A stretch of 64,000 nt of DNA, from positions 8,990,001 to 9,054,000 of the forward strand of contig OX388314.1 in the NCBI GenBank assembly GCA_947579605.1, given 5' to 3'. Of the stretch, positions 529 to 40,721 are shown piece after piece. Made by a program: the position numbers and the translations under genes. The DNA is from Athripsodes cinereus. Taxonomy: Eukaryota; Arthropoda; Insecta; Trichoptera; Leptoceridae. Under the pieces are notes generated by a model. It was not told the origin of the DNA, searched no databases, and worked only from the letters and a program-made list of their open reading frames with translations. Positions within the stretch are counted from its first letter, which is position 1; the number at the start of each line of letters is the position of its first letter.

Positions 529-1778
529 TTATTTATTTGAGTATTTAGGAGGTTGGGGTGGTGGTGGAGGGGGATGAGGTGGTGGTGGTGAAGGAGGAAT
601 GAGCGATAGAGTGGGAGGTACAAAAGGTAGATTACAGATGCATTCATTTCCTTCGCATCTTCCTCCAGGTCTATTTATCCTAACGCAATGAATGTAACAT
701 GCATTTGTATATTTTGGGCAGATTGGTTTCACGATGTGTGGTAACAGTTTTTCAGGCGCATCTGAAATGTTTACAAATTTAGATTGTTAATAAAATTGTT
801 ATTTCATTGCCATCTTCCGTAGTTCTCATAATTGCTCATCCATTCTTTTCTGTTAGTTTTCGAGTGTCATGTAAAAGCCATGCATTCGTAAAACATTTCG
901 TAAAATACATTAAACATTTTCTATTCAGCGATAAAGTACGTCACCTTTCCTGATATCCCATTTTTTTCTTGACACGGAGAGCACAACTTGTTTGTTTTTA
1001 ATATGAAGTCAGTCTGTTGATTTGTTTATTTAGCCGGCCGGCCATTCAGGCTGCGCACTGTGCGGATAAATAGGAGTCTTTGTCTCCTGAGGTATCCGGG
1101 TGTGTGGAGGTTTCATTCAATAATATGGGATTACCGTGACTACCGTATCTATGAAAGCTGATGTAATAATCAATATGAATGCTAATTTGCTATAATGGTT
1201 AAGTCTTGTAAAAAAGATAGTATGGAAAAGGACATAATAACTAAAAGATAAACTTGGTTAACAGGAAGAATACTTGGAGGCGTGACCCCGTCTAAGAATA
1301 AAATGGGTCGATAACGAAGACTTAAGTGCCTTAAGTACCAAAACTCACTGACTACAATTAATAGAAGAGAAAGTATGTTTGATGAATGGCATAGATGTTT
1401 ATAGAAGCAAACATAAGTTTCAAAGGTAGGAATAAGCAGTGCTCGATCCTTTCTGTCTACTCCGCAAGAGAAATAGTGTGATATTATCATGATGATAAGG
1501 GTAATATAAATATGTATTGAGTTAACTATTTTTTTGAAAAAAAAAATGATTAATAGACGAAAATAATTTTAGCCAGACGTTGAGAATAAACGTTAATCTC
1601 TGCATGAAAGTATCCTGTCACTAAGCCTGGATTTATAATTGAAATACTAATTTTTCTATGATAGTGAAAATGAATTAATAATAATTGTACAAACATTAAA
1701 CTCACTCTCAGCCACTTTTATAAAGAAAACTGACAGAATGCAGGCAACGAAGAACCAAAATGGTATTTTCCCCAACAT
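529..1778 (-). CDS. Defensin-like prepropeptide with proline-rich tail (copy A)
   Basis: Two exons are visible: 1706-1778 (signal peptide, 24 codons plus one base, beginning MLGKIPFWFF) and 529-761, joined across a GT-AG intron (762-1705) in phase 1. The predicted protein is 101 residues: a hydrophobic signal peptide, a short propeptide, a six-cysteine module, then a tail of about 34 residues rich in proline and ending in KYSNK. Cysteine spacing is C-x6-C-x3-C-x9-C-x4-C-x-C with a PGG before Cys4. This is the CS-alpha-beta defensin pattern, and the short first loop resembles the ancient invertebrate type. Unlike copy B there is no dibasic KR site before Cys1 (the sequence there is HIVKPIC), so maturation may differ. 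Defensins act outside the cell on microbial membranes or cell-wall precursors; that role is inferred from family. The frame is intact. The gene runs opposite to copies B, D, E and F. Confidence 0.82.
1005..1115. repeat. Repeat fragment in copy A intron
   Basis: A GC-richer patch containing GCCGGCCGGCC and a small AGGAG/CTCCT hairpin lies in the copy A intron. It interrupts sequence that is continuous in the introns of copies B and D-F. I do not recognise the family. Confidence 0.4.
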
Positions 1779-2735: not shown

Positions 2736-2759
2736 TGTGATGAATCGAATATATACAAG

Positions 2760-9805: not shown

Positions 9806-11462
9806 ATGTTGGGGAAAAAACCATTTTGGTTCTTCGTGGTCTGCATTCTGTCAGTTTTCTTCATACAAGTGGCTGAGAGTGAGTTACATTAATTTCAGTA
9901 CCTAATTAATTTTTGTACAATTATTATTAATACTTTCTCACTAGGTATCATTGCATAAATACTATTTCAGGCTTAGTGACAGTTTACTTTCATGCAGAGA
10001 CTAACGTTTATTCTTAGCGTATGGCTAAAATTATTATCGAGTGTTAAGATTTTTTTTATAGAAAAATAGTTATCTCAATACAAACAGGTACCTACATGTA
10101 AATTATACTTATCATCATGATACAATTACTCCGTTTCTCTTGCGGAGTAAGCAGAAAAGATTTAGTGCTGCTTACCTTTGCAAATAATATTAACTTCTAC
10201 AAACATTTATCCCGTTAGATATTCTTCTATAATAATACTTGTACTCAGAAAGTGTTAATACTTAGGGATGCGGTCATTGTTATCTAGCTATTGTATTCTC
10301 AGACGGGACCACGCCTCCGAGTATTCTTCCCATTAACCAAGTTTATCTTTTTATTCATTATGTTCTCCTGCATACTTTCCATATTCAAAGGCTTAACCAT
10401 AGTATCAAATTAACATTCGTATTGTTGACTATGCCTGTGAAGAATTGTGATGTAAGAAGCAAGTGCCATAGACTTGAACATAACTATATGATTGTGCGTA
10501 TTTATGCATGTATGTACCTAGTTTCACAATTGAGTGATTTTTTATTCTGTTTTTGTATTGTTTGTAATATTAATATAATTTCCTAAAGTTTGTTTTATAG
10601 TTTAATTTTGTTATAACTTTTGCAAAGTGTTGTTCTTTTGTTAATAGCTGTAATTTAATAGAGTGTAGGGAAATGAAATGTATTGATGTTAATCGTATAG
10701 AGGAAAGTATATAATACTGTAATTTAAAAGGTAACAGCAGTTTATAATTTAGTAAATAAATAAATAAGTATTGATTATTCTACATAAATATTCATAGGGG
10801 TTTGAGGCATTTGATCTTCTCTGCCTATTCGGCAAAGAAAGCGGCGTGTAAATAATGATGGTATAAATAAATGATTCCAATTTCCAATCTTCATCAAATC
10901 TCGATACAAACCATTCCACATAAAAAAAATACTATACTGACACGGTAATCCCACAAGTGGAGCAAAGAGCAGTATAATCTCATATAAAATATATTACATA
11001 TGTTGCTCTCTCCATGTCAAGAAAAAATTGGAACATCTGGAAAGGTGACGTATTTCATCGCTGAATAGAAAATGTTAAATGTCTTTTACGGGATTTTTTA
11101 TGAATATATGGCTTTTACAGGACACTAGAAAACTAACAAAAAAGAATGAAAGACCAACTATGAGAACTACGAAAGATGCCAATAAAATAATGATTCAATG
11201 AAATAACACTTTATTAACAAACAAAATTTGTAAATTTTTAGATGTGCCCGAAAAAGTATTATCACGCGTCAAGAGATTAACCTGCCCAAGTTTCCCAAGT
11301 GCATGCAATGCCCATTGCAATATGCTCGGAAAACCTGGAGGAAAATGCAAAGGAGATACCTGCGTCTGCAATCAACCTCCTAAGCCCACTCGTCCCCCTA
11401 CACCACCACCACCTCGTCCCCCACCACCACCACCCCAACCTCCTAAATACTCAAATAAATAA
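9806..11462 (+). CDS. Defensin-like prepropeptide with proline-rich tail (copy B)
   Basis: Exon 1 is 9806-9878 (signal peptide beginning MLGKKPFWFF) and exon 2 is 11242-11462, with a phase-1 GT-AG intron of 1363 bp. The predicted precursor is 97 residues. After the signal peptide comes a short propeptide ending in RVKR, a furin-type site typical of insect pro-defensins. The mature peptide of 61 residues holds six cysteines (C-x6-C-x3-C-x9-C-x4-C-x-C) with the gamma-core GGKCKGDTC. A 29-residue tail follows, about 60 percent proline, with TRPP and PRPP motifs and the end KYSNK. The fold and secretion follow from family knowledge. The tail is unusual and resembles proline-rich antimicrobial peptides or SH3-type ligands. 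An AATAAA overlaps the stop codon. This is the best-preserved six-cysteine copy in the window. Confidence 0.88.
10925..11140 (-). repeat. Dispersed repeat copy in copy B intron
   Basis: A diverged minus-strand copy of an element best seen at 44480-44670 (CACGGTA..CCCACAAGTGG ... CATCGCTGAA). It is also present in the introns of A and D-F. A plus-strand copy lies 3' of exon 2 in each plus-strand unit. Confidence 0.6.
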
Positions 11463-19678: not shown

Positions 19679-19790
19679 ATGGGTCATGTTGGCTGAGAAT
19701 GCTCAATGATAGTTGGGCAAAAAGAGCACTGTTCTTCCATCCGCAAGGGTTTCGTTGGGCATCCCTCTTTCACAACACACCGTTCCTACG
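19670..19790 (+). repeat. Small RTE-like LINE fragment
   Basis: Plus-strand translation gives GSCWLRMLNDSWAKRALFF, matching the WLGHVLRMPNDSWPKRELFF end of the element at 18336-18884. It is followed directly by the block duplicated from 7390. Confidence 0.65.
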
Positions 19791-21992: not shown

Positions 21993-23656
21993 ATGTTGGG
22001 GAAAAAAACATTTTGGTTCTTCGTGGTCTGCATTCTGTCAGTTTTCTTCATTCAAGTGGCTGAAAGTGAGTTATTTAACTTTTTGTACAATTATATTTTT
22101 TTCATTTTCACAATCATTGCATAAATAGTATTTCAATTATAAATCCAGGCTTATGTAGTGACAGTGTACTTTCATGCAGAGACTAACGTTTATTCTTTAC
22201 GTCTGGCTAAAATGATTATGGAGTGTGAAAAATATTTATCTCAATACAAGCAGGTACCAGGTACCTACATGTATATTATCCTTATCATCATGATCCAATC
22301 ACTCCGTTTCTCTTGCAGAATAGGCAGAAAGGAGTGCTGCTTAATTTTGCAAATAGCATTAACTTCTACACACATTTCTCCCGTTAGATATTCTTCTATA
22401 ATAATGCTTGTACTCAGAAAGTGTTAATACTTAGGGATGCGGTCTTCGTTATCTAGCTATTGTATTCTCAGACGAGACCACGCCTCCGAGTATTCTTCCT
22501 ATGAACCAAGCTTGTCTTTTTAGTCATTCTGTCATCTTCCAAACTTTTCATTATACAAGACTTAACCAAAGTAGAAAAGAAACATTCATATTACTAACTA
22601 TGCCTGTGTAGAATTGTGGCATAAGAAGTAAGTGACATAGACTTGGACATACCTAACTATAGGTATTATGATAGAGCATATTTATGCATCTATGTAGTGG
22701 TACTATTGAGTGATTTTTGATTTTGTTATTGTATTGTTTGTAATCATTTCATTTCATTTCGTTTCCTAAAATTTTTTTAATTTTTATTTTATATTATAAT
22801 TTTTGCAAAGTTTTCTTCCTTTGTTAGTAGCTTAAATTTTATAGAGTGTAGGGAAATGAAATGTATTGATGTAAATCGTATTCAGTAAAGTATATAATAC
22901 TGTAATTTAAAAGGTAAGAGCAGTAATAAATAAATAAATAAATATATAAATATTCATAGAGGTTCAAGGCATGTGATCTTTTCTGCCTATTCGGCAAAAA
23001 AAGCGGCGTGTAATGATGGTATAAACAAATGGAACTTGGTAGGTTATGACTCGAATTTCCAATCTACATCAAATCCCAATACAAAACATTCAACATATTA
23101 AAATACTATACTGACACGGTAATCCCACAAGTGGAGCAAAGAGCAGTCTAATCTCATATAAAATATATCATATAAGTTGCTCTCTCCGTGCCAAGAAAAA
23201 TTGGGACATCTGGAAAGGTGACGTATTTCATCGCTGAAAAGAAAATGTTTTATGTCTTTTAAGGGATTTTTTACGAATATATGGCTTTACAAGACACTAG
23301 AAAACTTAGAGAAAAGAATGGAAGACCAATTATGAGAACTACAGAAGATGCCAATGAAATAATGATTCAATGAAATAACAATTTATTTATTTACTTTATT
23401 CTTCACTTTACATTGATTACAATATTACAAAATAAAACAGTGTCATTTATATCAGTTATACGAGTACAATTCAATGTACAGAGGGCAAGTTTATTAACAA
23501 AACAAATTTGTAAATTTTTCAGATGCGCCTCAAAAAGTGTTATCACGCGACAAGAGATCAGTCTACCACCATTTCCTATATGTATGCAGGGCCAAATGCA
23601 AATCGCAGGGAAAACCTGGAGGAAAATTGAAAGGAAATACCTGCGTCTGTGATTAA
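21993..23656 (+). CDS. Four-cysteine defensin-derived prepropeptide (copy D)
   Basis: Exon 1 is 21993-22065 and exon 2 is 23523-23656, with a phase-1 GT-AG intron of 1457 bp. The precursor is 68 residues: the family signal peptide (here MLGKKTFWFF), a propeptide ending in SRDKR, and a 32-residue mature peptide starting SVYHHFLYVC. Relative to copy B, Cys1 is replaced and Cys4 is Leu (GGKLKGNTC), while the other four cysteines keep their spacing (C-x3-C-x14-C-x-C). In canonical defensins Cys1 pairs with Cys4, so exactly one disulphide is lost. Translation stops right after the last cysteine (CVCD, then TAA), removing the proline tail. Signal, processing site, splice sites and TATA box are intact, so I call it a gene. 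Function is inferred only from origin. Confidence 0.78.
23385..23505 (-). mobile_element. Short retroelement insertion before exon 2 (copy D)
   Basis: A block TTTATTTACTTTATTCTTCACTTTACATT..CAATGTACAGAGGGCAAGTTT lies just upstream of the exon 2 acceptor. It is present at the same place in E (29412-29520) and F (40452-40560) but not in B, and a separate copy is at 30712-30870. It dates the split of D/E/F from B. Confidence 0.7.
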
Positions 23657-23746
23657 CCTCCTAAGCCTCCCACTCGTCTCCCTACACCATCACCACCCCG
23701 TCCCCCTCAATCACCACCCCAACATCCTAAATACCCAAACAAATAA
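23657..23746 (+). pseudogene. Untranslated fossil of the proline tail (copy D)
   Basis: Immediately after the TAA stop the same frame continues as a proline-rich stretch (PPKPPTRLPTPSPP onward, ending KYPNK) to a second TAA. The stop corresponds to a CAA codon in copy B. The tail is now 3' untranslated sequence unless the stop is read through. Confidence 0.8.
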
Positions 23747-25600
23747 ATATTAAAATGATACGAGAGCTATTTCAAAACTTTTCAGCACCATCGATAAGTT
23801 AATAGATTTTTCACCATAAGATATGTTAACTATAGGTACAAACTTCAATAACTCTGACTACACTTTTGTTTATAGCATTCTTCCGAAGTTGTTACCTGGC
23901 AACATTGTCTGTCAATAATTTATTGGTTTACTTTAATAATAATAAGGGTTGAAGTATGGATGGCAAGCCCTTTAGGTTTCTGACTTTGACATCTCCGGTG
24001 TTGGCAAAATTTGTCAGTTTAAAGTGTTGAAATTCGGATGAATGTGAGTTCCAAGACGTGCGTTATCTGGGTGATCGGCGGGTCGCTATGAGGAAAAAAA
24101 ACGAAATGGTAGATTTAGTACATCAAACTGTGAAGAGAGGTTGTCGATTAGCTGTTTAAAATATTTCCAAATATTTTCAGAGTTCCACAACGTTTTAAAT
24201 TGTGTTTGGATATGAATAAATAATCCGAAAACTGAATTAACCCAAATCGCATCAGTACTTACTACATACCTATCTTGTTTTATTAATATATTGAAAATAT
24301 AAGTTTTTCTATAATATAAGTTAATCTATTTCTTATCAAATAGCTCTCGTACATCAAAGTTTTCAGTATATATAATTTATTTGAATGAAATGCCTACTTT
24401 CTGTATACTCTACATTAAAATTCTTTTCACATGTTATAATAGTTAAAATAAAGTTGCTTCTGTAATCATAATAAATATATAAAATTATACACTTTAAATA
24501 CCCAAATACGTTTTACTTATTTAAATGTTTAAACCACTAACTTATATAGGTTCATTATCTTTTACACTATTTATTCAATTATAATTAGGATGTTTATTAT
24601 TCACATGACGTTAGCTTGATGATGATTGCGCTAGCTCATGAAAGCCTACTCGCTTTCAATTTTTATTAAAAAAATACTAATTTAGTTTGAAATCGTTTAA
24701 TATTTCTAACACATTTTACGGAAACAAATAGAAAATTTACACTTTTTAATAAGTATGGGCAAACTCTTTGAACGTATGTTTTCAATACTTCAAAAACCTA
24801 AAAAAGTGTTTGTGTTAGGAAGTTGTTGCATTCTCCCACAATAAAGTGTTTTATTTATAATGAGTTTTATTTATAAGGTGTAACGAGTGCTATGTAAAAG
24901 GCAGGTGTTTAAAAAATAAAGACATCTTAATTTCAGTAGTGATGTTTATCACCCATCATGAATGTGTTATTTTTTGTTGGCACGTGAGAAAACACACGCT
25001 TGTATGTTTACTGCATGTGGCTGGTCTACTGGCTACCCTAGCTGTGGGATATTCTGTGTGATAGGAAAATAGAAGTGTTGTAAGCAGTGAGTATGCAAAT
25101 ATGGAACAACATCTTGACAAGCGACTTTATGGCGACTTTCAATAGTTCGGGTTGGCCATATTTAACCAAATCGACAACATGTTAATATTCGAAGTAGATG
25201 TTCATTAATTGGATGTATTAACAATTATTAATCTATTCTATTCTTCTCAAGACCATCCACTCGTTTGCGAGTGATTAAGGCCAATATGGAACAACAGGTT
25301 TCTAATTATGTTTTATGTAATAAAAAAGTACTCAAATAATTCATAACAAAATAACCTTTAATACAAAGATGGGATTTAATACAATTTGATGCATCACACG
25401 GCTGTTGTTTACTAAAATATGTAGCTCCCTTTTGCATTTCAATAATAAAGTGGCTCAAAAAGTTTAATATTTTAATTATTTGCCATGAGGAACTTAACCA
25501 TACATTTAAATATCTACTGATTTAAGTGCTTGTTAAATTTGTACACTAAGGGAATATGTAATGCATCCCTCTATGTACACTAAGGGGATATGTAATGCAT
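23747..25600 (+). repeat. 3' part of the duplicated unit after copy D
   Basis: Shared with the flanks of B (partial), E and F. It contains the dispersed element (about 24880-25045) and a CACTCG-TTTG-CGAGTG hairpin tag near 25260. Two near-identical direct copies of CACTAAGGGxATATGTAATG lie at about 25540-25610. No gene in this stretch. Confidence 0.7.
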
Positions 25601-26110
25601 CCCTCTATATATAAATTCTGATCTTTCATATTTGGGGCACTCGAAAAATATATGATCCAAAGATTCTTCATTACTGCAACATCATCCGTAATCAGGGGAG
25701 TGGAAAACTCCAATTCTTGCTACAATTATTCATCATCTTCATCCTCGTCATCACCTGACTTTTATAATATTGACTTATATAATAGATTTACATTTAGCAA
25801 TAAAAACAATTGTATCAAATGTTCACATTATATAATTTTATTTCACGTGATATTTAATTTCAATACAATTTCGCGAGAAATTATTTTATTACAATAATTA
25901 TGCACTAGTCAATTCCATAAATTCAGATGTCAAATTAATAAAAATTTCAACAAAATAATATTATTAATGTATGTTTAATAATTATTTATGACTATCATGC
26001 AGACACATTATGATTTAATCATAATTAAAATATTGTAAAAAATAATAACACTCATTACGAAATATTTGTTAAATAAGATGTTTCTCTTCAGCGTACGTCA
26101 TTGTTTCAAT

Positions 26111-26320
26111 TTATTTGTACAAAGTATAAGCCGCGGCGTAAGGGTATGAGGCGTATGTGTATGGACTGTATGCACTGTAAGCGCTGTAGGCATATGAAGG
26201 AGCGTAAGCTAAAGGAGCACTGTAGGCGTATGGGACCACATCGTCAACGTTGTATACAACTGGAGCGACCAATGCTTGGGGCTTAGCGTAAGCGAAGCAC
26301 AGCATAGCGGCGAACAAGAA
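26111..26320 (-). pseudogene. Cuticle-protein exon 2 without a visible exon 1
   Basis: This encodes 69 residues beginning FLFAAMLCFAYAKPQ and continuing with YAYSAPLAYAPSYAYSAYSAY-type repeats. It is preceded by a good acceptor (TTTTGTTTTCAG). The exon looks identical to the one at 46672-46881. The intron continues to about 26900 and then switches to the defensin upstream block, so the MLKL exon and TATA box found at 47.9 kb are absent here. It is either a promoterless partial duplicate or an alternative last exon served by the distant first exon. The protein type is a secreted structural cuticle component rich in Tyr, Ala and Ser. Confidence 0.7.
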
Positions 26321-26920
26321 CTGAAAACAAAATAAAAGTATAAAAATACCCACTTTAGTGACAATAAATACTTACATACAGTGGTGACCATAAGTATGTA
26401 AACGCTTAACAGAATATATGAAAATGATCAATAGCGGTTTTTTTCTTTTTGTGAGGACAGCAAAAGAATAAATTTATATTAAAATGTTAAAATAATTACT
26501 TCAATAAATAAAAAAAAGAGAATTTCTACCATTAAAGGGTATCTCAAATGGACTTTAATGACTCATTTATTTTGATGGTTGAAATAAACCACCATGAAAT
26601 GGTAAAAAACCGATGACTCATCCAAAAAAATAATAGAATTTTAATGAGAATAATGCAAGTGACACATATCAATTTTAATGAATAAGTGCATTAAAAACCT
26701 AACTTTTCTAGGAATTTTAACAAAATTCTAAGCGTTTCCATACTTATGGGTACTGCTGTACTTGTACATACTATGTTGGCTTTCTGTTTTCATAATTGAT
26801 TTTAAGTCATTGAATAATAATAATACTGACAATTGGAAATCAAAATAGGATAAAGGTAATGTATTTTGAAAAATAATTATTTCCCGAATTAATAATAAAA
26901 TATACTCCTATATGATTTAA
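26321..26920 (-). repeat. Truncated cuticle-gene intron
   Basis: Matches 46882-47440 and the corresponding 35-kb copy. It ends at an AATAATAAAATATACTC boundary where the defensin E upstream flank starts. Confidence 0.7.
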
Positions 26921-27384
26921 CGGAATATTTTCTTTTTACCCACTTTCTGATATGTACATATTGTGAGTTTAATATTCGCTATTTATTACGAATTTTCTTG
27001 TCTCAATTATGATATACAATTTTTTTACTTAATAACACTCTTTCCCTAAGGATGCCCTAAGGAAGGCGAAGGCGCTCGACAATAAGTATATTAATATTTG
27101 AACACCTGCCTTTTACATAAAATAGTTAAACGTTTCTAATAGTGACTGAAGAGAATTTAATAACTAATTCAATAAACATCAAAAAATCGTGAGCAAAGTT
27201 ATAAACAACATTTAAAACGGTCGTGAGGAAAATATTATTATAAAAACTATATATACATGCATTAGGAATTAACTATATAAACTGTAGGGTCAGAATTCAA
27301 ATTGTAATAAAAAAACAACAAAATGTGAAATATAATTTTTTTTTAAATTTATAACTAATTCACGAATATGTTATAACATTTCAG

Positions 27385-27393
27385 TATAAAAGG
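27385..27393 (+). promoter_or_regulatory. TATA box of copy E
   Basis: TATAAAAGG in the conserved promoter block, about 106 bp upstream of the start codon. Confidence 0.78.
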
Positions 27394-27490
27394 CAATTCT
27401 GAAATATGGAAATATAATAACACTTGAGGTCTATTGGTCAGTGTTGACTCAATTACTACGAGTATTTGTAATAAAGTAACTTTGTAGAAA

Positions 27491-29681
27491 ATGTTGGGGA
27501 AAAAACCATTTTGGTTCTTCGTGGTGTGCATTTTGTCAGTTTTCTTCATACAAGTGGCTGAGAGTGAGTTACATTAATTTCAGTAATTAATTTTTGTACA
27601 ATTATTATTAATACTTTCTCACTAGGTATCATTGCATAAATACTATTTCAGGCTTAGTGACAGTGTACTTTCATGCAGAGACTAACGTTTATTCTTAGCA
27701 TCTGGCTAAAATTATTAGAGTGTTAAGAATTTTTTTACAGTAAAATAGTTATCTCAATACAAGCAGGTACCTACATGTATATTATACTTATCATCATGAT
27801 ACAATTACTCCGTTTCTCTTGCGGAGTAAGCAGAAAGGATTTAGTGCTGCTTACCTTTGCAAATAATATTAACTTCTACAAACATTTATCCCGTTAGATA
27901 TTCTTCTATAATAATACTTGTACTCAGAAAGTGTTAATACTTAGGGATGCGGTTTTTGTTATCTAGCTATTGTATTCTTAGACGGGACCACGCCTCCGAG
28001 TATTCTTCCTTTTAACCAAGTTTATCTTTTTATTCATTATGTTGTGTAGTGGCTGAGAGTGAGTTTCATTAATTTCAAAGTTTCAATCTCACTAGGTATC
28101 ATTTAAGTTTCATTCTCACTAGGTATCATGAAATAATGAAATAACTACTATTTCAATGACAAATCGAGGCTAAGTGGCAGGACACTTTCATGCAGAGACT
28201 AACGTTTATTCTTAACGTCTGGCTAAAATCATTATCATCTGTTAATAATCTTTCAGAAAAATAGTTACTTCTATACAAGCAGGTACCTACATGTATATTA
28301 TACTTATCATCATGATACAATTACTCCGTTTCTCTTGCGGAGTAAGCAGAAAGGATTGAGTGCTGCTTACCTTTGCAAACAATATAACTTCTACAAAAGT
28401 TTATCCCGTTCACCTTAGATATTCTTTTATTATAAAACTCGTAGTCTGCAAGTGTTAAGACTTGAGGATATGGTCTTCGAAGGTCTGGTCATTTTATTCT
28501 CTGACTGGCACACGCCTCCAAGTATTCTTCCTGTTAACCGAGTTAATCTTTTTATTCATTATATTCTCCTGCATACTTTCTAATATACAACACTTAACCA
28601 TAGTAGAAAAGTAAAATTCATATTACTTACTATGCCTTTGTGGATTTGTGACATAGACTTGGACATACCTAACTATATTATGATACAGCATATTTATTCA
28701 TGTATCTAGTGGTACTATTGAGTGATTTTTGATTTTTTTTATTGTATTGTTTGTAATATTAATATCATTTCATAAAGTTTGTTTAATAGTTTAATTTTGT
28801 TAAAATTTTTGCAAAGCTTTGTTCTTTTGATAATAGCTATAATTTAATATAGTGTAGGGAAATGAAATGTATTGATGTTAATCGTATTGGGGAAAGTATA
28901 TAATACTGTTATTCAAAAAGTTATAGCATTTTATAATTTAGTAAATCAATAAATAAATATTGATTACCTATTATAAAAGTATTCATAGGGGTTCGAGGCA
29001 TTTGATCTTCTCGGCCTATTCGGCAAAGAAAGCGGCGTGTAATGATGGTATAAATAAATGGAACTTGCTAGGTTTTGACTCGAATTTCCTCTACAATCAA
29101 ATCCCAATACAAACCATTCCACATATAAAAATACTATACTGACACGGTAATCCCACAAGTGGAGCAAAGATCAGTCTAATCTCATATAAAATATATCATA
29201 TAAGTTGCTCTCTCCGTGCCAAGAAAAAAATGGGACATCTGGAAAGGTGACGTATTTCATCGCTGAATAGAAAATATTAAATGTCATTTACGGGATGTTT
29301 TACGAATATATGGCTTTACAGGACACTAGAAAACTTAGAGAAAAGAATGGAAGACCAATTATGAGAACTACAGAAAATGCCAATGAAAGAATGATTCAAT
29401 GAAATAACAAATTATTTATTTACTTTATTCTTCACTTTACATTGGTTACAGTATTACAAAATAAAACAGTGTCATATAAATATTTGTTATACAATTCAAT
29501 GTACAGAGGGCAAGTTTATAACCAAATAAATTTTGTATATTTTTCAGATGCGCCTCAAAAAGTGTTATCACGCGACAAGAGATTATCCAGCATATATTTC
29601 CTATATGCATGCAGGGCCAAATGCGAATCGCTGGGAAAACCTGGAGGAAAATTGAAAGGAAATACCTGCGTCTGTGAATAA
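27491..29681 (+). CDS. Four-cysteine defensin-derived prepropeptide (copy E)
   Basis: Exon 1 is 27491-27563 and exon 2 is 29548-29681, with a phase-1 intron of 1984 bp. The precursor is 68 residues, with the family signal peptide, a propeptide ending SRDKR and a 32-residue mature peptide (LSSIYFLYACRAKC onward). As in D, cysteines 1 and 4 are gone and the remaining four keep C-x3-C-x14-C-x-C. The last codon is GAA, then TAA. Compared with F, the mature region has 12 changed codons, all altering the amino acid, although the nearby intron is about 99 percent identical. The intron contains an internal duplication that includes a second copy of the exon-1 end and donor (about 28046-28064), which could allow alternative splicing. 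Confidence 0.78.
27551..28560 (+). repeat. Internal tandem duplication at the start of the copy E intron
   Basis: The exon-1 tail plus about 450 bp of intron recur from about 28046. A remnant GTGGCTGAGAGTGAG shows that the duplicated piece began inside exon 1. Copy F shares this arrangement (second donor near 39090-39108). B and D do not. Confidence 0.75.
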
Positions 29682-29771
29682 CCTCCTAAGCCTCCCACTC
29701 GTCTCCCTACACCATCACCACCCCGTCCCCGTCAATCACCACCCCAACATCCTAAATACCCAAATAAATAA
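29682..29771 (+). pseudogene. Untranslated fossil of the proline tail (copy E)
   Basis: An in-frame proline-rich continuation after the TAA, still open to the ancestral stop and ending KYPNK. It is nearly identical to the D and F versions. Confidence 0.8.
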
Positions 29772-32315
29772 ATAGTCAAATGATACGAGAGCTATTTCAA
29801 AACTTTTCAGCACCATCGATAAGTTAATAGATTTTTCTCCATAAGATATGTTAACTATAGGTACAAACTTCAATAACTCTGACTACACTTTTGTTTACAA
29901 CATTCTTCCGAAGTTTTTACCGGGCAACATTGTCTGTCAATAATTTATTGGTTTACTTTAATAATAATAAGGGTTGAAGTATGGATGGCAAGCCCTTTAG
30001 GTTTCTGACTTTGACATCTCCGGTGTTGGCAAAATTTGTCAGTTTAAAGTGTTGAAATTCGGATGAATGTGAGTTCCAAGACGTGCGTTATCTGGGTGAT
30101 CGGAGGGTCGCTATGAGGAAAAAAAACGAAATGGTAGATTTAGTACATCAAACTGTGAAGAGAGGTTGTCGATTAGCTGTTTAAAATATTTCCAAATATT
30201 TTCACAGTTCCACAACGTTTTAAATTGTGTTTGGATATGAATAAATAATCCGAAAACTGAATTAACCCAAATCGCATCAGAACTTACTACATACCTATCT
30301 TGTTTTATTAATATATTGAATATATAAGTTTTTCTATAATATAAGTTAATCTATTTCTTATCAAATAGCTCTCGTACATCAAAGTTTTCAGTATATATAA
30401 TTTATTTGAATGAAATGCCTACTTTCTGTATACTCTACATTAACATTATTTTCACATGTTATAATAGTTAAAATAAAGTTTCTTCTGTAATCATAATAAA
30501 TATATAAAATTATACACTTTAAATACCCAAATACGTTTTACTTATTTAAATGTTTAAACCTTTAACTTATGTAGGTTCATTATCTTTTACACTATTTTTT
30601 CAATTATAACTTGTATTAGGATGAACATTATTCACATGACGTTAGCTTGATGATGATTGCGCTAGCTCATGAAAGCCTACTCGCTTTCAATTTTTATTAA
30701 AAAAATACTAATTTATTTATTTATTTATTTATTTTATTCTTTACTGTACATTGGTTACAATATTACATAGTGAAATAGTGGCATAAAAATAACAATTATA
30801 AATTCAATGTACAGAGGGCGAGTTTATCGCTAAAATGCGATGTCTTCCAACTAACCCGGTTTGAATTTGAAAAATAATTTAGTTTGAAATCGTTTAATAT
30901 TTCTAACACATTTTACGGAAACAAATAGAAAATTTACACTTTTTAATAAGTATGGGCAAACTCTTTGAACGTATGTTTTCAATACTTCAAAAACCTAAAA
31001 AAGTGTTTGTGTTAGGAAGTTGTTGCTTTCTCCCACAATAAAGTGTTTTATTTATAATGAGTTTTATTTATAAGGTGTTACGAGTGTCATGTAAAAGGCA
31101 GGTGTTTAAAAAATAAAGACATCTTAATTTCAGCAGTGAGGTTTATCACCCATCATGAATGTGTTATTTTTTGTTGGCACGTGAGAAAACACACGCTTGT
31201 ATGTTTACTGCATGTGGCTGGTCTACTGGCTACCCTAGCTGTGGGATATTCTGTGATGGGACAATAGAAGTGTAGTAAGCAGTGAGTATGCAAATATGGA
31301 ACAACATCTTGACAAGCGACTTTTTTGGCAACTTTCAATAGTTCGGGTTGGCCATATTTAACCAAATCGACAACATGTTAATATACGAAGTAGATGTTCA
31401 TTAATTGGATGTATTAACAATAATTCATCTATTCTATTCTTCTCAAGACCATCCACTCGTTTGCGAGTGATTTAGGCCAATATGGAACAAAAGGTTTCTA
31501 ATAATGTTTTATGTAATAAAAAATTAATCAAATATTTCATAACAAAATAACCTTTAATAAAAAGATGGGATAGTTATTATTAATAGTGAAATTGTGACAA
31601 TTCGATGCATCGCACAGCTGTTGTTTACCATATAATATGTAGCTACCTTTTGCATTTCAATAATAAAGTGGCTCAAAAAGTTTAATATTTTAATTATTTG
31701 CCATGAGGAACCTAATCATACATTTAAATATCTACTGATTTAAGTGCTTGTTAAAATTGTACACTAAGAGAATATGTAATGCATCCCTCTATGTACACTA
31801 AGGGGATATGTAATGCATCCCTCTATATATAAATTCTGATCTTTCATATTTTGGGCACTCGAAAAATATATGATCCAAAGATTCTTCATTACTGCAACAT
31901 CACCCGTAATCAGGGGAGGGGAAAACTCCAATTCTTGCTACAATTATCCATCATCTTCATCCTCGTCATCACCACTTGACTTATATAATAGATTTACATT
32001 TAGCAATAAAAACAATTGTATCAAATGTTCACATTATATAATTTTATTTCACGTGATATTTAATTTCAATACAATTTTGCAGAAATTATTTTATTACAAT
32101 AATTGTACACTAGTCAATTCCATAATTTCAGATGTCAAATAAATAAAAATTTCAACAAAATAATATCATTAATGTATTTTTAATAAATATTTATGACTAT
32201 CATGCAGACACATTATGATTTAATCATAATTAAAATATTGTAAAAAATAATAACACTCATTACGAAATATTTGTTAAATAAGATGTTTCTCTTCAGCGTA
32301 CGTCATTGTTTCAAT
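29772..32315 (+). repeat. 3' part of the duplicated unit after copy E
   Basis: Collinear with 23747-26110. It contains the dispersed element (31080-31250), the CGAGTG hairpin tag (near 31455) and the paired TATGTAATGCATCCCTCTAT repeats near 31770-31830. No gene seen. Confidence 0.7.
30712..30870 (-). mobile_element. SINE-like or LINE 3' insertion with target duplication
   Basis: Present only in the copy E flank. It starts with TTTATTTATTTATTTA, has the TTTACTGTACATTGGTTACAA body, and is flanked by TAATTTA on both sides. The D and F flanks show the empty site. It is the same family as the block before exon 2 in D-F. Confidence 0.8.
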
Positions 32316-32380
32316 TTATTTGTACAAAGTATAAGCCGCGGCGTAAGGGTATGAGGCGTATGTGTATGGACTGTATGCAC

Positions 32381-35133
32381 TAGGCCGGGCCGAAATTATT
32401 TTTTTTTGATATTGAAAACGTAATAGTGATAGATTAGTGCTAAATGTCGTTAAAGTTACGTATGAAAAATATTTTTCGATTTGAAAGTTATCTTCTGTCT
32501 CCGGATTGACCTTGAAGTTTCATAAAAATGTGTTTTTTTCTTATTTTCTAGCTAGTATAAACATTACTGCGTGTTGAGATATAATCTCACGAGACAAGTT
32601 AAATCAAACAAGTAGGTACAGCAATCACAGACAAGGGTCTTGTTTGCACGCGTTTTGCGTATTGCAGTCCCACAGGTACCTGCACTGGTACCAATTCGGG
32701 CGCTAATAATGTCAATATTGCTTCTGCCGTTTAAAGTGATTGTTGTGTTTGCACGCGCTTCGCGCACGTTATTACTATGAATCGGACTCGGAAATCATAA
32801 ATTAACAAGTACAAAAAAACACCCATCATTTCAGAAAATAGCAAATATAGTAACAACCAAGGTAGAAGACATATGGAGGACGTCTTCGATTCCTACAGTT
32901 ACACATTTGAGAGTTACACAGATGCTGAAATACTATCATTCAAAGTATAAATACATCTTAAAATCACATCCCAAGATACCACCAAAAAAGCTGGAAGAAT
33001 TTCAATGTAGCAGTAAAATATTGTTTGATATCTCGACATGTAAATATAGAGAAATCAATGAATGCTCTTGTCCAAGAGATCGCAAAGTGCCAGTGCAAGA
33101 GCAAAACTTCTTAGTCGATCAGCGAACATCAAGAAAGATGATTATCGGAAACATAGATGTGACCGTAACCAAACAACTACAAAATCGTCAACAAAGAAAA
33201 ATTCGCGGACAAAAGTCTATCTCTCGATCAAAAACATTCGACGAGGAAGCAACATCAAATATTTCGACTTCTTCAATATCTTCGTCTTCCAGTTCATCCA
33301 CATCTGACATTACTTTCACTTCTAAAACATATCGCAAGAAGATTACTGCAACCGCAGATTTTCCCACATTGGCCAAAACTTGCGACAGGTATAGCGTATC
33401 AGACAGAGCAGCAGCAGCTATTGCTTCATCAGTACTTCATGATACAAAGTCTAATGTTCCAATTTTAGACAAGAACAAAATACGCAGAGAACGAAAGAAA
33501 ATAAGAGAAAATATTATGAAACAAGATAAAAATATGCGAGTTTCAGCTTTATACTTTGATGGTCGTAAAGATAAAACTCTAGTAATAAGAAAAAAAAAAG
33601 TGGAAGAGAATATAGAGGAACAATAATTGAAGAGCATATTTCACTAATAAAAGAACCCGATTCCAAATACTTGGGATATGTCGTGCCAACATCTGGAACA
33701 GCAAAGGCGATTGAAAGAGCAATATCAGATTTCTTTTCAGGAGAAAAAAAAAATCCTTTGACAATTTACTTGCCATCGGATGTGATGGAACAAATGAAAA
33801 TGTTGGAAAGTTTGGTGGAGGGATACGTTTATTTGAAAAAAACGTTAGATAAACCATTACAATGGATCATTTGCCTATTGCATATGAATGAGTTACCATT
33901 CAGGCATTTGTTTGAATATATTGATGGTCCCACATCAGGTCCTAATACTCTTTCGGGCCAGATAGGAAAGGAACTTGAAAAATGTGAAGAAAAACCAATT
34001 GTCAAGTTCCAGATAATCACAACGGAAATGCCTAATTTATCCTTTCAAGATTTGAGTACAGATCAATTATATTTATACAAAATTGTATCAGCTATTTCGA
34101 CTGGAATATTTCCCGATGAGTTGGCAAATAGAGCCCCAGGAAAAATGTCTCACGCTAGATGGCTTACACGAGCTAATATAATTCTGCGACTATATACTTC
34201 TACAGAGACTCCTTCAGAAAAACTGATCACCTTAGCAACTTATATTGTCAAGGTTTATGCTCCAACTTGGTTTGCAATAAAATGTCACCCCACCTGCAAT
34301 GATGGATCCCGTCACCTATGGAAGTTAATTTTCTTGTCCAGATATTTATCAGATGAACTCAAATCCGTAGTAGATCCTGTAATTCAAAGAAATAGCTATT
34401 TTGCTCACCCGGAAAATTTATTGCTAGCGATGTTAACTGATCCTCAAAAGCATATAAAAGAATTAGCTGCGCGCCGTATAATGAAAGCTCGCACCGCTCA
34501 GCAAAACAATATCAGACTCTTTCAAGTGCCAAATGTGAATTTTGAAGCTGCCATATACTATGATCTTATAGACTGACAGCAAAATATAACTGAACCACCG
34601 ATATTACAAAAAGTATCTGATGAAGATCTTCAAACATTTATTGCACGTGGTGGCGAAGATAAATTCATTTTTTTGCGTTTGCCCTGTCATACGCAAGCAG
34701 TGGAAAGATCTGTTAAGGCTGTAACAGAAGCCTCAGCAACTTTACAGCAACTCATCTGCCACAATTTGAGAGCAAATAAGATTTTATTCCCAATTAATTA
34801 ATAAATAATCACTATAAACTATATTTATAATTATGTAGGTATTTATTTTTAAAATAATTTATGTTTATTTAAATATATTGGTACATAAACAAATGTTGTT
34901 TTATTGAATAAATAATTATAAAATCTAAATAAATTAACATGCCTAATACCTATATGAGAATATGGGATTTTTTCATAATTTTCAAAACTTCAAGGTCAAT
35001 CCGGAGACAGAAGATGTTGTTTTTTTGTCATGAAATTTTTTATACAAATATTATACGTCATTTGGCAACATATTTTCACTATTACTTTCTGATCAAGAAA
35101 ACTTTTTTTTTCATACATTCGTGGCCCAGCCTA
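32381..35133 (+). mobile_element. DNA transposon, hAT-like or unassigned, 8-bp target duplication
   Basis: Ends TAGGCCGGGCC and (reversed) TAGGCTGGGCC form short inverted repeats. An exact 8-bp duplication GTATGCAC flanks the element, and removing it restores the cuticle exon. A long subterminal inverted repeat (about 31 bp, CTTCTGTCTCCGGATTGACC) lies at about 32490-32520 and 34985-35016. The element carries a decayed transposase on the plus strand. An 8-bp duplication fits hAT- or P-type transposons. Confidence 0.88.
32907..34801 (+). pseudogene. Transposase, frameshifted
   Basis: Two long open pieces (32907-33626 and 33671-34576) and a third after a TGA make one protein of roughly 600 residues. 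Visible features are CSSKILFDIS near the N-terminus, a conserved YFDG (likely first catalytic Asp), PLQWIICLLHMNELPFRHLF, HARWLTRANIILRLY, DPVIQRNSYFAHPENLL and CHTQAVERSVKAVTEAS (likely catalytic Glu). The GCDGT motif with the likely second Asp is at 33778-33792 but in another frame, so two compensating indels surround it. A further frameshift lies in the A-run at about 33590. It belongs to a transposase family repeated in animal genomes that I cannot place in a named superfamily with certainty. Not functional as is. Confidence 0.75.
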
Positions 35134-35286
35134 GTATGCACTGTAAGCGCTGTAGGCATATGAAGGAGCGTAAGCTAAAGGAGCACTGTAGGCGTATGGG
35201 ACCACATCGTCAACGTTGTATACATCTGGAGCGACCAATACTTGGGGCTTAGCGTAAGCAAAGCACAGCATAGCAGCGAATAAGAA

Positions 35287-35790
35287 CTGAAAACAAAATA
35301 AAAGTATAAAAATACCCACTGTGATGACAATAAATACTTACAGTGGTGACCATAAGTATGTAAACGGTTAACAGAATATATGAAAATGATCAATAGCGGT
35401 TTTTTTTCTTTTTGTGAGGACAATAAAAGAATAAATTTGTATTAAAATGTTAAAATAATTATTTATTTATTTTATAAAGTTATAATTATACCTTAAAAAT
35501 TACTTATAACAAAACATTTCTTCAATAAATTAAAAAAAGAGAATTTCTACCATAAAAGGGTATCTCAAATGGACTTTAATGACTCATTCATTTTGATGGT
35601 TAAAATAAACCACCATGAAATGGTAAAAAACCGATGACTCATCCAAAAAAATAATAGAATTTTAATGAGAATAATGCAAGTGACACATTTCAATTTTAAT
35701 GAATAAGTGCATTAAAAACCTAACTTTTCTAGGAATTTTAACAAAATTCTAAGCGTTTCCATACTTATGGGTACTACTGTACTTGTACAT
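35287..35790 (-). repeat. Cuticle-gene intron, interrupted copy
   Basis: Aligns with 26321-26770 and 46882-47330. It is interrupted at 35791 by a second transposon and resumes at 37777. Confidence 0.7.
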
Positions 35791-37776
35791 TAGGGTGTCC
35801 CTTATTTGGACGATTTTTTTTTTTTTTTAGTTATTGAAACGCATACACCCCAATTGTGTTTATTAGCCTATTACTTACCCAAATATAGAATTTAAGCTTT
35901 CTACGTTGATTGGAACCCGTGCCGACAGAGCCTCAAAGTTTTAGAAAAAAGCTGCTTTAAGCGTCTTTTAAATTTAGCTGTAGATCATCATTTAATACCA
36001 CTATGTTAGCTAAATATTGATGAAAACACAAGTTTATATGGAGCTTTTCTTATAATTATTTAAAAAAGTTACAATATTGATATTAAATAATTTGGATATA
36101 TCCTCTAAAATGTCTCTTTTTTATAGTCTAGGTACATTTTTCTATGTTCATGAAAACAACGTCATAAGAACTGATTCTATTCTATGTCTGCGATTATCAA
36201 ACCATGAAAGCTTTGGATTAGTTTAACATCTCTTTCAGCTGTGTCATTCACCGCTTTTAAGCTAGATATCTTTTCTTTAAGCTTCCACAAATGCTACGAT
36301 TTCTTTATACGAAGATACACCTTCTTGAAGGAAACTGCTGTCAAGTTTTAGTTGTGAAAAAAATCATTTCTCTTGACGGATACAAAATAACTCAAAAATT
36401 TTCCTATAAAAACATTAAGGCTGCTTGTAGAATACTTAAAAAGAACGTGGTAGGTATACCATATTAAAAAAATTGAGCACTACTACCTAACATATAGAGA
36501 GCCAGATATATGTTCCTTCGATCGTTCATATTTCTTACCGAAATCACCAAAGTTTTCTTTTTTTGTAAATTTTCTACAGTGGTCCCTTTGGTCTGCTCAT
36601 CAATTTCATTATAAAAATTAAAATGATGGCTATTTCTTTTGACAAATATCACAAAAGGTCGACTGAAATCAGCTTGTCAATTCTTTCGTTACCATTTAAT
36701 GTTTTTAAAAAACACAAGTCTTGATTTGGCGCTTTCACCACCAAACAGCATTCAAGCAAGGACTTTACATGAACTACCACAATAAATAAACAAACATCTA
36801 GTAAAGTTTCTTTGTCCTTAGCGCCCATTTTAAACTGAGACTGCAATAAACATATTTTTGAAGAGTAAATAGCTCTTGCCATCCATCGTGCTTGATGCAT
36901 TGCACCAGTAGATCTGATTTTTAAATTATGTGGATGCCAGAGGCTCTCTCAGGCGTAACAAAGCTGTGTAAAGCAGCAGGTGCCAACAAGGTCTCTGAAA
37001 CCATACGCTTTAATCTCTTTTTCTCTTCTGCAAGTTTTTTCAGCCTCGCTTTTTTCAATTTCAGCCATTTTTTTTAACACCCGCTATGCATCCTGTACGT
37101 CTTGGTTCTCTTTGCTTTTACAATAATTTATTATCTTCTTTGTTTTTTAGTCTTTTGAGAGCATCGGCGAATACAATATCGCGTAAATTATTCAATTCAA
37201 GTGGAAATTCTCCTCACGGTACCTATGAAAATCCTGAATCTTGTTGCTATTTTTTGGCAGCTCTTTCCAGACCTTATAAAAATCCCCTGACCTCTTAACA
37301 CGATTATTAACAGCTCTAATAGGTATTCTAGCCTTTTTCCAGAACGTAATGCACACGCAAATAACTAGATTTTTGCTTTCACTAACATTCAACTTAATAT
37401 CGCTTATGTCGAAAGATGGAACTGCGAAAACTTGACGATTGGACTGTAATTTTGCACCTGTCATCTATTTATTTATCTTCACCAACCAAGAAAATACCTT
37501 TTATATTACTCTTTAGTTCTACTGATATCTTTAAAACATAAAAAGTCCGCGATAATTACCAAAAAAGCCGAGACTGAGTGACAGTAACAACGGGCACTCA
37601 CCACCCCTGTGAGTTTTTGTATGAAACTTGTATGAAGATGCTTCCGTGCAAGTCGGCACGGGTTGCACTGTTCCGAATAAGATAAAAATTGGTTTTTGAG
37701 TGTTTTAGGACCAAATGAACAAAATAATAGCCTATGCGTTGTAAAATTAAAACTTTGAAAAATAAGGGACACCCTA
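35791..37776 (-). mobile_element. Second DNA transposon with 17-bp perfect inverted ends
   Basis: Ends are TAGGGTGTCCCTTATTT on both sides in inverted orientation. The target duplication is TTGTACAT (35783-35790 and 37777-37784), and the empty site is visible near 26765. The minus strand carries decayed transposase pieces, including MHQARWMARAIYS (36649-36900), which corresponds to the HARWLTRANII segment of the first transposon, and an N-terminal piece at 37192-37464. It belongs to the same broad family, but to a different lineage, and is more decayed. Confidence 0.85.
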
Positions 37777-38500
37777 TTGTACATACTATGTTGGCTTTCT
37801 GTTTTCATATTTGATTTTAAGTCATTGAATAATAATAATACTGACAATTGGAAATCAAAATAGGATAAGGGTAATGTATTTTGAAAAATAAATATTTCCC
37901 GAATTAATAATAAAATATACTCATATATGATATTTAACGGAATATTTTCTTTTTACCCACTTTCTGATATGTACATATTGTGAGTTTAATATTCGCTATT
38001 TGTTACGAATTTTCTTGTCTCAATAATGATATACATTTTTTTTTACTTATTAACACTCTTTCCCTAAGGATGCCCTAAGGAAGGCGAAGGCGCTCGACAA
38101 TAAGTATATTAATATTTGAACACCTGCCTTTTACATAAAATAGTTTAACGTTTCTAATAGTGACTGAAGAGAATTTAATAACTAATTAAATAAACATCAA
38201 AAAATCGTGAGCAAACTTATAAACAACATTTAAAACGATCGTGAGGAAAATATTATTATAAAAACTAAATATACATGCATTAGGAATTAACTATATAAAC
38301 TGTAGGGTCAAATGCAATTTGTAATAAAAAACAACAAAATGTGAAATATAATTTTTTTTAAAATTTATAACTAATTCACGAATATGTTATAACATTTCAG
38401 TATAAAAGGCAATTCTGAAATATGGAAATATAATAACACTTGAGGTCTGTTGGTCAAAGTGTTGACTCAATTACTACGAGTATTTGTAATAAAGTAACTT
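37777..38500 (+). repeat. End of cuticle intron copy and upstream flank of defensin F
   Basis: Collinear with 26770-27490, including the AATATTTTCTTTTTACCC boundary and the conserved promoter block. Confidence 0.75.
38401..38409 (+). promoter_or_regulatory. TATA box of copy F
   Basis: TATAAAAGG in the conserved block, about 108 bp before the start codon. Confidence 0.78.
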
Positions 38501-38508
38501 TGTAGAAA

Positions 38509-40721
38509 ATGTTGGGGAAAAAACCATTTTGGTTCTTCGTGGTCTGCATTCTGTCAGTTTTCTTCATACAAGTGGCTGAGAGTGAGTTACTTTAATTTCA
38601 GTAATTAATTTTTGTACAATTATTATTAATACTTTCTCACTAGGTATCATTGCATAAATACTATTTCAGGCTTAGTGACAGTGTACTTTCATGCAGAGAC
38701 TAACGTTTATTCTTAGTATCTGGCTAAAATTATTATAGAGTGTTAAGAATTTTTTTACAGTAAAATAGTTATCTCAATACAAGCAGGTACCAGACCTACA
38801 TTACAAATCACTGCCTGCATGTATATTATACTTATCATCATGATACAATGACTCCGTTTCTCTTGCGGAGTAAGCAGAAAGGATTTAGTGCTGCTTACCT
38901 TTGCAAATAATATTAACTTCTACAAACATTTATCCCGTTAGATATTCTTCTATAATAATACTTGTACTCAGAAAGTGTTAATACTTAGGGATGCGGTCTT
39001 TGTTATCTAGCTATTGTATTCTCAGACGGGACCACGCCTCCGAGTATTCTTCCTATTAACCAAGTTTATCTTTTTATTCATTATGTTGTGTAGTGGCTGA
39101 GAGTGAGTTTCATTAATTTCAAAGTTTCATTCTCACTAGGTATCATTTAAGTTTCATTCTCACTAGGTATCATGAAATAACTACTATTTCAATGACAAAT
39201 CCAGGCTAAGTGGCAGGACACTTTCATGCAGAGACTAACGTTTATTCATAACGTCTGGCTAAAATCATTATCATCTGTTAATAATCTTTCAGAAAAATAG
39301 TTACTTCTATACAAGCAGGTACCTACATGTATATTATACTTATCATCATGATACAATTACTCCGTTTCTCTTGCGTAGTAAGCAGAAAGGATTGAGTGCT
39401 GCTTACCTTTGCAAACAATATTACTTCTACAAACGTTTATCCCGTTCACCTTAGATATTCTTTTATTATAAAACTCGTAGTCTGCAAGTGTTAAGACTTG
39501 AGGATATGGTCTTCGAAGGTCTGGTCATTTTATTCTCTGACTGGCACACGCCTCCAAGTATTCTTCCTGTTAACCGAGTTAATCTTTTTATTCATTATAT
39601 TCTCCTGCATACTTTCTATTAAACAACACTTAACCATAGTAGAAAAGTAAAATTCATATTACTTACTATGCCTTTGTGGATTTGTGACATAGACTTGGAC
39701 ATACCTAACTATATTATGATACAGAATATTTATTCATGTATCTAGTGGTAGGTACTATTGAGTGATTTTTGATTTTTTTATTGTATTGTTGGTAATATTA
39801 ATATAATTTCCTAAAGTTTGTATAATAGTTTAATTTTGTTATAATTTTTGCAAAGCTTTGTTCTTTTGATAATAGCTATAATTTAATAGAGTGTAGAGAA
39901 ATGAAATTTATTGATGTTAATCGTATTGGGGAAAGTATATAATACTGTTATTGAAAAAGTTATAGCATTTTATAATTTAGTAGATCAATAAATAAATATT
40001 GATTACCTATTATAAAAGTATTCATAGGGGTTCAAGGCATTTGATCTTCTCGGCCTATTCGGCAAAGAAAGCGGCGTGTAATGATGGTATAAATAAATGG
40101 AACTTGCTAGGTTTTGACTCGAATTTCCTCTATAATCAAATCCCAATACAAACCATTCCACATATAATAATACTATACCGACACGGTAATCCCACAAGTG
40201 GAGCAAAGATCAGTCTAATCTCATATAAAATATATCATATAAGTTGCTCTCTCCGTGCCAAGAAAAAAATGGGACATCTGGAAAGGTGACGTATTTCATC
40301 GCTGAATAGAAAATATTAAATGTGTCATTTACGGGATGTTTTACGAATATATGGCTTTACAGGACACTAGAAAACTTAGAGAAAAGAATGGAAGACCAAT
40401 TATGAGAACTACAGAAAATGCCAATGAAAGAATGATTAATGAAATAACAAATTATTTATTTACTTTATTCTTCACTTTACATTGGTTACAGTATTACAAA
40501 ATAAAACAGTGTCATATAAATATTAGTTATACAATTCAATGTACAGAGGGCAAGTTTATAACCAAATAAATTTTGTATATTTTTCAGATGCGCCTCAAAA
40601 AGTGTTATCACGCGACAAGAGATTATCCGGCATATATTTCATGAATGTATGCAGGGCCCAATGCCAAAGGCAAGGAAAATCTGGAGGAAAATTGATTGGA
40701 AATGCCTGCGTCTGTGATTAA
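38509..40721 (+). CDS. Four-cysteine defensin-derived prepropeptide (copy F)
   Basis: Exon 1 is 38509-38581 and exon 2 is 40588-40721, with a phase-1 intron of 2006 bp. The precursor has 68 residues: the family signal peptide, a propeptide ending SRDKR and a mature peptide beginning LSGIYFMNVCRAQC. Cysteines 1 and 4 are lost (GGKLIGNAC) with the other four in register, as in D and E. The last codon is GAT, then TAA; a second stop (TAG) follows three codons later in the fossil tail. The signal exon differs from E by two synonymous changes only, while the mature exon differs by twelve non-synonymous codons. The intron carries the same internal duplication as E. Confidence 0.78.

Follow-up and report, generated by a model that had tools for sequence, protein, structure and literature searches.

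Tandem defensin-type genes of the caddisfly Athripsodes cinereus with four cysteines, no tail, a chimeric copy and likely diversifying selection

Classical arthropod defensins (Defensin_2 in Pfam; e.g., sapecin and lucifensin) have a six-cysteine pattern, and the cysteine-stabilized alpha-beta (CS-alpha-beta) fold pairs these cysteines as C1-C4, C2-C5 and C3-C6. The C1-C4 bond is one of the three defensin disulfides according to the available parts of PMC3978492 and PMC11116330. Here, we describe a 64-kb stretch of the 716-Mb, 160-contig genome assembly of the caddisfly Athripsodes cinereus (the window; positions 8,990,001-9,054,000 of contig C10) that holds five two-exon genes of one family: copy A, on the minus strand, and copies B, D, E and F. 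B and the related copy G, which sits outside the window at C10:10.077 Mb, share the prepro-mature plan and the six-cysteine pattern of the classical defensins. The locus differs from them in two ways: D, E and F are without C1 and C4 and score under the Pfam cut-off or go undetected, and A, B and G have a proline-rich tail. We consider it probable that D, E and F are tandem genes for predicted secreted peptides that came from a six-cysteine ancestor with a tail and lost C1, C4 and the tail; that their mature parts outpace introns and flanks under likely diversifying selection; and that E is a crossover chimera.

Lost cysteines and lost tail

The genes of the family have a common plan. Exon 1 encodes a hydrophobic predicted signal peptide and is followed by a phase 1 intron with a GTGAG donor. 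Exon 2 encodes a propeptide with a dibasic end in B, D, E and F (SRVKR in B, SRDKR in the other three) and then a mature part of 32 residues. Six cysteines are present in A, B and G, whose reading frames stay open into tails of 33, 29 and 29 residues with 17, 17 and 16 prolines, respectively. Where B and G read CAA, D, E and F read the stop codon TAA, so the DNA equivalent to the tail now lies 3' of the stop. The codon of cysteine 4 has changed from TGC to TTG in D, E and F alike. That of cysteine 1, also TGC, has become TAC, AGC and GGC in D, E and F, respectively, all a single step from TGC, and the reconstructed ancestor of the three had TGC there with a posterior of 0.99 at omega 1 and 0.77 at omega 15. 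The ancestral cysteine 1 was thus probably retained, which suggests that cysteine 4 was lost first and that the orphaned cysteine 1 was replaced afterwards, by independent changes in D and in the E/F lineage.

The four remaining cysteines (C10, C14, C29 and C31) are invariant across D, E and F and have the CxxxC...CxC spacing of the cysteine-stabilized helix (CSH) motif. C1 and C4 are replaced in all three copies, which breaks the six-cysteine CS-alpha-beta pattern, and the GXC of the gamma-core is absent as well, the GGKC of B reading GGKL. A preliminary description of this DNA stated that the cysteines and the GGK core are kept. This is accurate across D, E and F, but two of the six cysteines of their relatives are gone, and neither this loss nor that of the tail was mentioned there. 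D, E and F share exons and flanks with the six-cysteine genes, which shows common descent; as judged from these shared sequences, their ancestor was a defensin that had six cysteines and a proline-rich tail. Among the 23 exon-2-type paralogs of the genome that we inspected, 18 keep six cysteines, two are broken by stops, and three (D, E and F) have four. Eight of 25 loose Defensin_2 matches fall outside this count (C1:33.72 Mb, C5, C6, C11, C20:0.16 Mb, C23 and two on C24); the loose list also had matches in 3 of 14 control genomes, none of them over the cut-off.

The assignment to Defensin_2 varies with the copy. Against a cut-off of 20.4 bits, B (28.9) and G (26.4) score above, A (18.1) falls under despite its six cysteines, E (12.8) is below, and D and F match no Pfam family. 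Since Pfam models miss D and F, such genes may be under-annotated. In its model, B has a helix and two strands; CS-alpha-beta peptides from insects, scorpions and fungi are among its best matches by sequence and by fold. The helix is predicted to lengthen from residues 7-16 to residues 2-16 upon loss of C1-C4. The C2-C5 and C3-C6 disulfides of the CSH motif are predicted in a model of E only. An amphipathic N-terminal helix in D, E and F is not supported by their hydrophobic moments, which are 0.32, 0.05 and 0.21, respectively, versus 0.18-0.22 in A, B and G. No named protein relative of the family on contig C10 was scored (1 and 58 candidates). Titles and abstract openings of the papers listed yielded no insect defensin family without the C1-C4 pair, and nothing on point about caddisfly defensins or defensins with a proline-rich C-terminal extension.

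Recombination and rate of change in the mature exon

The preliminary description had singled out the amino-acid-changing differences between copies, and our counts agree. Over mature codons 37-68, E and F differ at 12 codons (16 bases) and D and E at 9 codons (13 bases), none of them synonymous when taken as whole codons. The propeptide up to SRDKR (codons 26-36) is identical in all three copies, and the two changes between the E and F signal exons are both synonymous. The near-identity reported for the last 200 bp of the E and F introns also stands, with a single gap and 1 difference over 199 aligned sites instead of about two differences. D and F, a pair not compared there, differ at 14 codons (21 bases), of which one is synonymous (codon 53). 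Counted by mutational path, the synonymous share is 2.0 of 16 changes for E/F and 0.5 of 13 for D/E, and the chance of finding zero synonymous codons is 0.038 with 16 random changes (E/F) and 0.061 with 13 (D/E). The lack of synonymous codons is weak by itself; the strength of the case lies in the rate of change relative to noncoding DNA at the same loci.

E is chimeric: it joins parts of D and F, with the switch inside the mature codons. In the upstream region, E and F differ at 17 of 695 positions, and D is 12-13% from both (∼450 aligned sites). The introns group likewise (31/1974 differences for E/F, 149/1400 for D/E and 155/1408 for D/F). In the 3' flank, the grouping is reversed (9/500 for D/E, 25/492 for E/F and 25/492 for D/F). 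We counted sites shared by one pair and absent in the third copy and the outgroup, excluding D+F sites (4 with B, 3 with G), with p values that are the best over all cuts and uncorrected. With outgroup B, the best cut has 58 E+F and 3 D+E sites on its left and 0 and 14 on its right (p=1.2e-12); with outgroup G, the counts are 74 and 3 on the left and 3 and 8 on the right (p=3.8e-7). None of 300 site-order permutations reached the observed value with either outgroup. In noncoding trees of fixed topology, E+F beats D+E by 81 log-likelihood units on the left, and D+E beats E+F by 34 on the right, where the sequence set runs from the D/E/F stop onward and so takes in the tail remnant, a coding stretch in B and G.

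One unequal crossover between the D gene and the F gene, within the mature-peptide codons, would yield D, E (the 5' part of F joined to the 3' part of D) and F. The segment from the D breakpoint to the E breakpoint would then be duplicated as the E-to-F segment and be of one age throughout. The spacers to the right of D and E differ at 105 of 3816 sites overall, or 2.0-3.7% across five sections without significant heterogeneity (p=0.24). Pooled with the E/F intron (1.6%), this comes to 136/5790, or 2.3%; the final 700 bp before exon 1, at the end of both spacers, give 16/688 (17/695 in a second alignment). The two segments look like one duplication, as an unequal crossover predicts. A long conversion tract, rather than a crossover, may also have made E, and conversion seems common in the array. 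The preliminary description had raised recombination that imports variant mature cassettes. Mature sequence did move, as part of an exon and most likely by unequal crossover between neighbors, and no donor cassette was found elsewhere: a search with 221 bases around E exon 2, in a whole-genome procedure that skips simple repeats and scores the best candidates only, led to six places: the five copies B, D, E, F and G, and a 74-bp fragment on C20.

As E is chimeric, the contrast between E and F (1% in the intron, 17% in the mature part) is partly due to recombination. The C-terminal part of E groups with D, so the E/F intron is unsuitable as a neutral yardstick for it, and we keep the simple E/F test against the intron as description only. 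The comparison of D with F is independent of the origin of E. Here, nonsynonymous change (18.5/74.3) exceeds that of the intron (155/1408) by a ratio of 2.3 (p=0.0013) and that of the 3' flank (25/492) by 4.9 (p=8e-7). We then used a codon model with the synonymous rate fixed to the noncoding rate (introns and flanks) and omega free; codons 37-41 were fitted on the left tree and codons 42-68 on the right one. Mature omega is 8.45 within D/E/F (p=2.7e-15) and 13.1 on the stem leading to them (p=1e-10; 13-20 over fits). The signal exon has an omega of 0.16 over all branches (p=7e-6), and the propeptide one of ∼0 within D/E/F (p=0.014) and 8.6 on the stem (p=0.012). For B and G together, the mature estimate of 0.23 is unreliable (the right-hand G branch is 0.52, and the G 3' flank aligns poorly); with the intron tree throughout, it is 0.66, not different from 1. 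A conservative fit, with neutral branches deliberately long and G omitted, gave 3.91 (p=9.4e-8) within D/E/F and 15.3 (p=2.4e-5) on the stem, neither of which was attained in any of 100 null simulations; the C-terminal block alone gave 2.46 (p=0.004).

Omega thus exceeds 1 against the neutral reference in D, E and F once the recombination blocks are separated, and the diversifying selection first proposed for the mature part is supported with recombination accounted for. Acceleration is well supported for the older D/F split and for the stem; since then it is only suggestive, the interval after the crossover being borderline when taken alone. Selection for change is the likely cause of the excess mature change in D, E and F.

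Several results weigh against this overall reading. E differs from its two proposed parents by only 5 mature changes, all nonsynonymous (p=0.03 when scaled to nonsynonymous sites, 0.07 when scaled to all sites), so recent selection is weakly supported. The N-terminal block is 5 codons long and has 9 changes between D and E or F, which one complex mutation or micro-conversion could inflate. The excess is not significant between E and F over codons 37-42 (p=0.20) or between D and E over the whole mature part relative to the intron (p=0.09). The two duplicated segments are not perfectly of one age, as the E/F intron (31/1974) is less diverged than the D/E spacer (105/3816; p=0.004). At 25,401-26,176 of the spacer, E is nearer F (15/765) than D (20/763), and a patch at 25,154-25,453 has D-private differences at 16 of 300 sites. 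Copy B, too, looks mosaic: it is 3% from E and F early in the intron and 12-13% from them in the middle. On the structural side, the Foldseek matches are weak, with none at E<=0.001. Finally, three NF-kappaB-type consensus patterns occur in none of the 700-bp regions upstream of B, D, E and F, which leaves immune inducibility unsupported.

How much of the pattern could arise without positive selection? Recombination alone, with E a chimera and D and F neutrally diverged, strikes us as an improbable account. The breakpoint does lie within the mature exon and makes E/F against the intron the wrong comparison for the C-terminal part of E; moreover, the p values for zero synonymous codons (0.04-0.06) and for the excess of E over its parents (0.03-0.07) are modest. 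However, the D/F excess over both intron and 3' flank holds whatever the origin of E, the conservative maximum-likelihood fit over both blocks keeps omega at 3.9, and the signal exon is constrained at the same loci. An origin of the variant segments in clustered multi-base mutation, or in short conversion tracts from a donor that has been lost or is missing from the assembly, is also quite improbable. Codons 37-41 hold 9 of the base differences of D from E and from F, and there are other converted-looking patches (B with E/F in the 5' intron, and the D-private patch above). However, no donor was found in the assembly, other variant codons are scattered over 43-68, and the C-terminal block alone retains its excess.

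We judge it very unlikely that D, E and F are pseudogenes in decay, which would explain the lost disulfide, the early stop that cuts off the tail and a second stop in the tail remnant of F: all three copies retain intact splice sites, signal codons and propeptide as well as the GGK core and the four remaining cysteines, and amino acids change above the neutral rate rather than at it. That E is a false join of two haplotypes at a repeated exon is hardly credible, for although its ∼2% distance from each parent on the matching side could be haplotype divergence, the E-to-F spacer has two inserts with 8-bp target duplications that the D-to-E spacer lacks, and E differs from the two proposed parents at 5 mature bases.

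Other features of the window and other defensin loci

The positions of the genes and of the proposed breakpoint and segments are collected in Table 1. The span that the preliminary description considered, 27,491-40,721, runs from E exon 1 through the F stop; copy D (21,993-23,656) lies outside it.

Table 1. Gene models, breakpoint and proposed duplicated segments in the window
Feature	Position	Strand	Basis or remark
Copy A exon 1	1706..1778	-	Gene model
Copy A exon 2: six-cysteine defensin-type peptide, mature 726-631, and open proline-rich tail	529..761	-	Gene model, Pfam
Copy B exon 1	9806..9878	+	0/73 bases differ from F
Copy B exon 2: six-cysteine defensin, mature 11277-11372, open proline-rich tail 11373-11459	11242..11462	+	Gene model, Pfam
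Copy D exon 1	21993..22065	+	Gene model
Copy D exon 2, mature 23558-23653, TAA stop	23523..23656	+	Gene model
Copy E exon 1, predicted signal peptide; phase-1 GTGAGT donor next	27491..27563	+	Gene model
Copy E intron, 1,984 bp	27564..29547	+	Gene model
Copy E exon 2: propeptide to SRDKR, four-cysteine mature peptide 29583-29678, TAA stop 29679-29681	29548..29681	+	
Copy E proline-rich tail remnant, 3' of stop	29682..29771	+	Codon alignment
Copy F exon 1	38509..38581	+	Gene model
Copy F exon 2, mature 40623-40718, TAA stop 40719-40721; second stop in tail remnant	40588..40721	+	
Tyr/Ala-rich second genes of the units	26020-26420; 46560-47000; that of E's unit split between 32280-32420 and 35100-35440	-	By eye
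Breakpoint inside mature codons 41-44; left edge 29,592/29,595	29595..29604	+	E groups with F left, with D right
Proposed duplicated segment S1 (D breakpoint to E breakpoint)	23579..29603	+	Ends set by alignment register
Proposed duplicated segment S2 (E breakpoint to F breakpoint)	29604..40643	+	∼2.3% from S1, inserts aside

A second small minus-strand gene, which by eye encodes a Tyr/Ala-rich, cuticle-type protein (AYSAYSAYSPYTYASYPY), accompanies each of D, E and F, so the array is made of two-gene units. In the E unit, this gene is split by an insert at 32381-35133 with TAGGCYGGGCC terminal inverted repeats and an 8-bp target duplication (GTATGCAC). From the terminal repeats and target duplication, we take this insert to be hAT-like; its two open reading frames gave no Pfam family above cut-off. 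A second insert, at 35791-37776, has TAGGGTGTCCC inverted ends and an 8-bp target duplication (TTGTACAT), and is present in the E-to-F spacer and missing from the D-to-E one. Farther upstream on the minus strand, an 823-amino-acid frame at 14928-17399 and a 220-amino-acid frame at 18336-18998 resemble, by eye, the reverse transcriptase of non-long-terminal-repeat retrotransposons. Pieces of the family flank occur in inverted orientation at 1-3000 and 19590-20350, with an intron fragment at 19613-19694 that no gene was found to adjoin; these are perhaps remnants of an older, rearranged copy. A 143-bp tandem repeat (2.4 copies) occupies 41737-42081, and part of it recurs inverted at 7,629-7,819.

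The tails of A (532-630, minus strand; 17 of 33 residues proline) and B (17 of 29, with a Pro-Arg-Pro motif) are fused to six-cysteine defensins, and the tailed product of either gene looks, from its composition, like a two-part antimicrobial peptide. Defensin-type genes also lie on other contigs. At C20:12,440,001-12,450,000, a single exon of paralog H encodes two defensin units and, after them, a Thr/Pro-rich tail, an X-tox-like arrangement; the adjoining copy I is broken after the second cysteine. Seven short, tailless six-cysteine defensins, mostly very alike, form a cluster at C1:31.04-31.07 Mb, and the only named matches of one of them are two proteins of another caddisfly, Arctopsyche grandis (73 and 80% identity). 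A further defensin cluster is found at C1:33.65-33.72 Mb and C17:3.07 Mb; the C17 copy is by eye nearly identical to a C1 copy, flanks included, and one C1 copy carries a stop. Gloverin had no match in the genome, nor did any control genome match it.

A proposed path and its relation to known systems

It is tempting to read the array as a defensin lineage that ran the proposed bacterial-to-animal path backwards, dropping the third disulfide, the gamma-core cysteine and the tail to become two-disulfide, fast-evolving effectors with a new target, shaped by selection and by crossovers that swap half peptides. We put this forward as a plausible but tentative proposal. The mature peptide would be released after SRDKR by a furin-like protease, and its fold would be held by the two remaining disulfides, C2-C5 and C3-C6. 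Loss of the C1-C4 tether and of the GXC cysteine may have ended the classical defensin mode of action. The N-terminal segment freed in this way could extend the helix, and the remaining CxxxC...CxC framework could act as a helix-hairpin with a retunable surface. Selection might be imposed by changing microbes, by parasites or by their toxins, and crossovers in the mature exon would bring N- and C-terminal parts into new combinations.

Within 20 kb, and with six-cysteine relatives nearby, the array captures the loss of a whole disulfide pair, and the likely order of steps can be read from it. It offers a natural test of the roles of the third disulfide and the gamma-core in a defensin, and of the ability of a two-disulfide CSH peptide to function in an animal. 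A further point is that an intragenic crossover can exaggerate the contrast between introns and exons in duplicated effector genes.

Four known systems bear on these peptides, each as described in the available part of its source. The X-tox defensin rosaries of Lepidoptera (PMC2728511) resemble paralog H, with its two defensin units per exon; D, E and F have one unit and fall outside the X-tox definition. Locusta LmDEF4 (PMC4996505) is likewise an insect defensin relative with a conserved cysteine missing, but there C2 alone is named as missing and not, as in D, E and F, the C1-C4 pair. DvirARP of Drosophila virilis (PMC11116330) is an insect defensin duplicate that retains two disulfides and has a changed function. 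In that case, the stretch with Cys2 and Cys3 was deleted and a new fold arose, whereas codon changes account for the absence of Cys1 and Cys4 from D, E and F, in which the CSH spacing is retained. The bacterial defensin-like peptide AdDLP (PMC5116183) has the CSH motif alone, with the same four cysteines in the CxxxC...CxC arrangement as D, E and F. AdDLP is proposed to represent the ancestral state; in contrast, D, E and F appear to have reached four cysteines by loss from six, in an animal.

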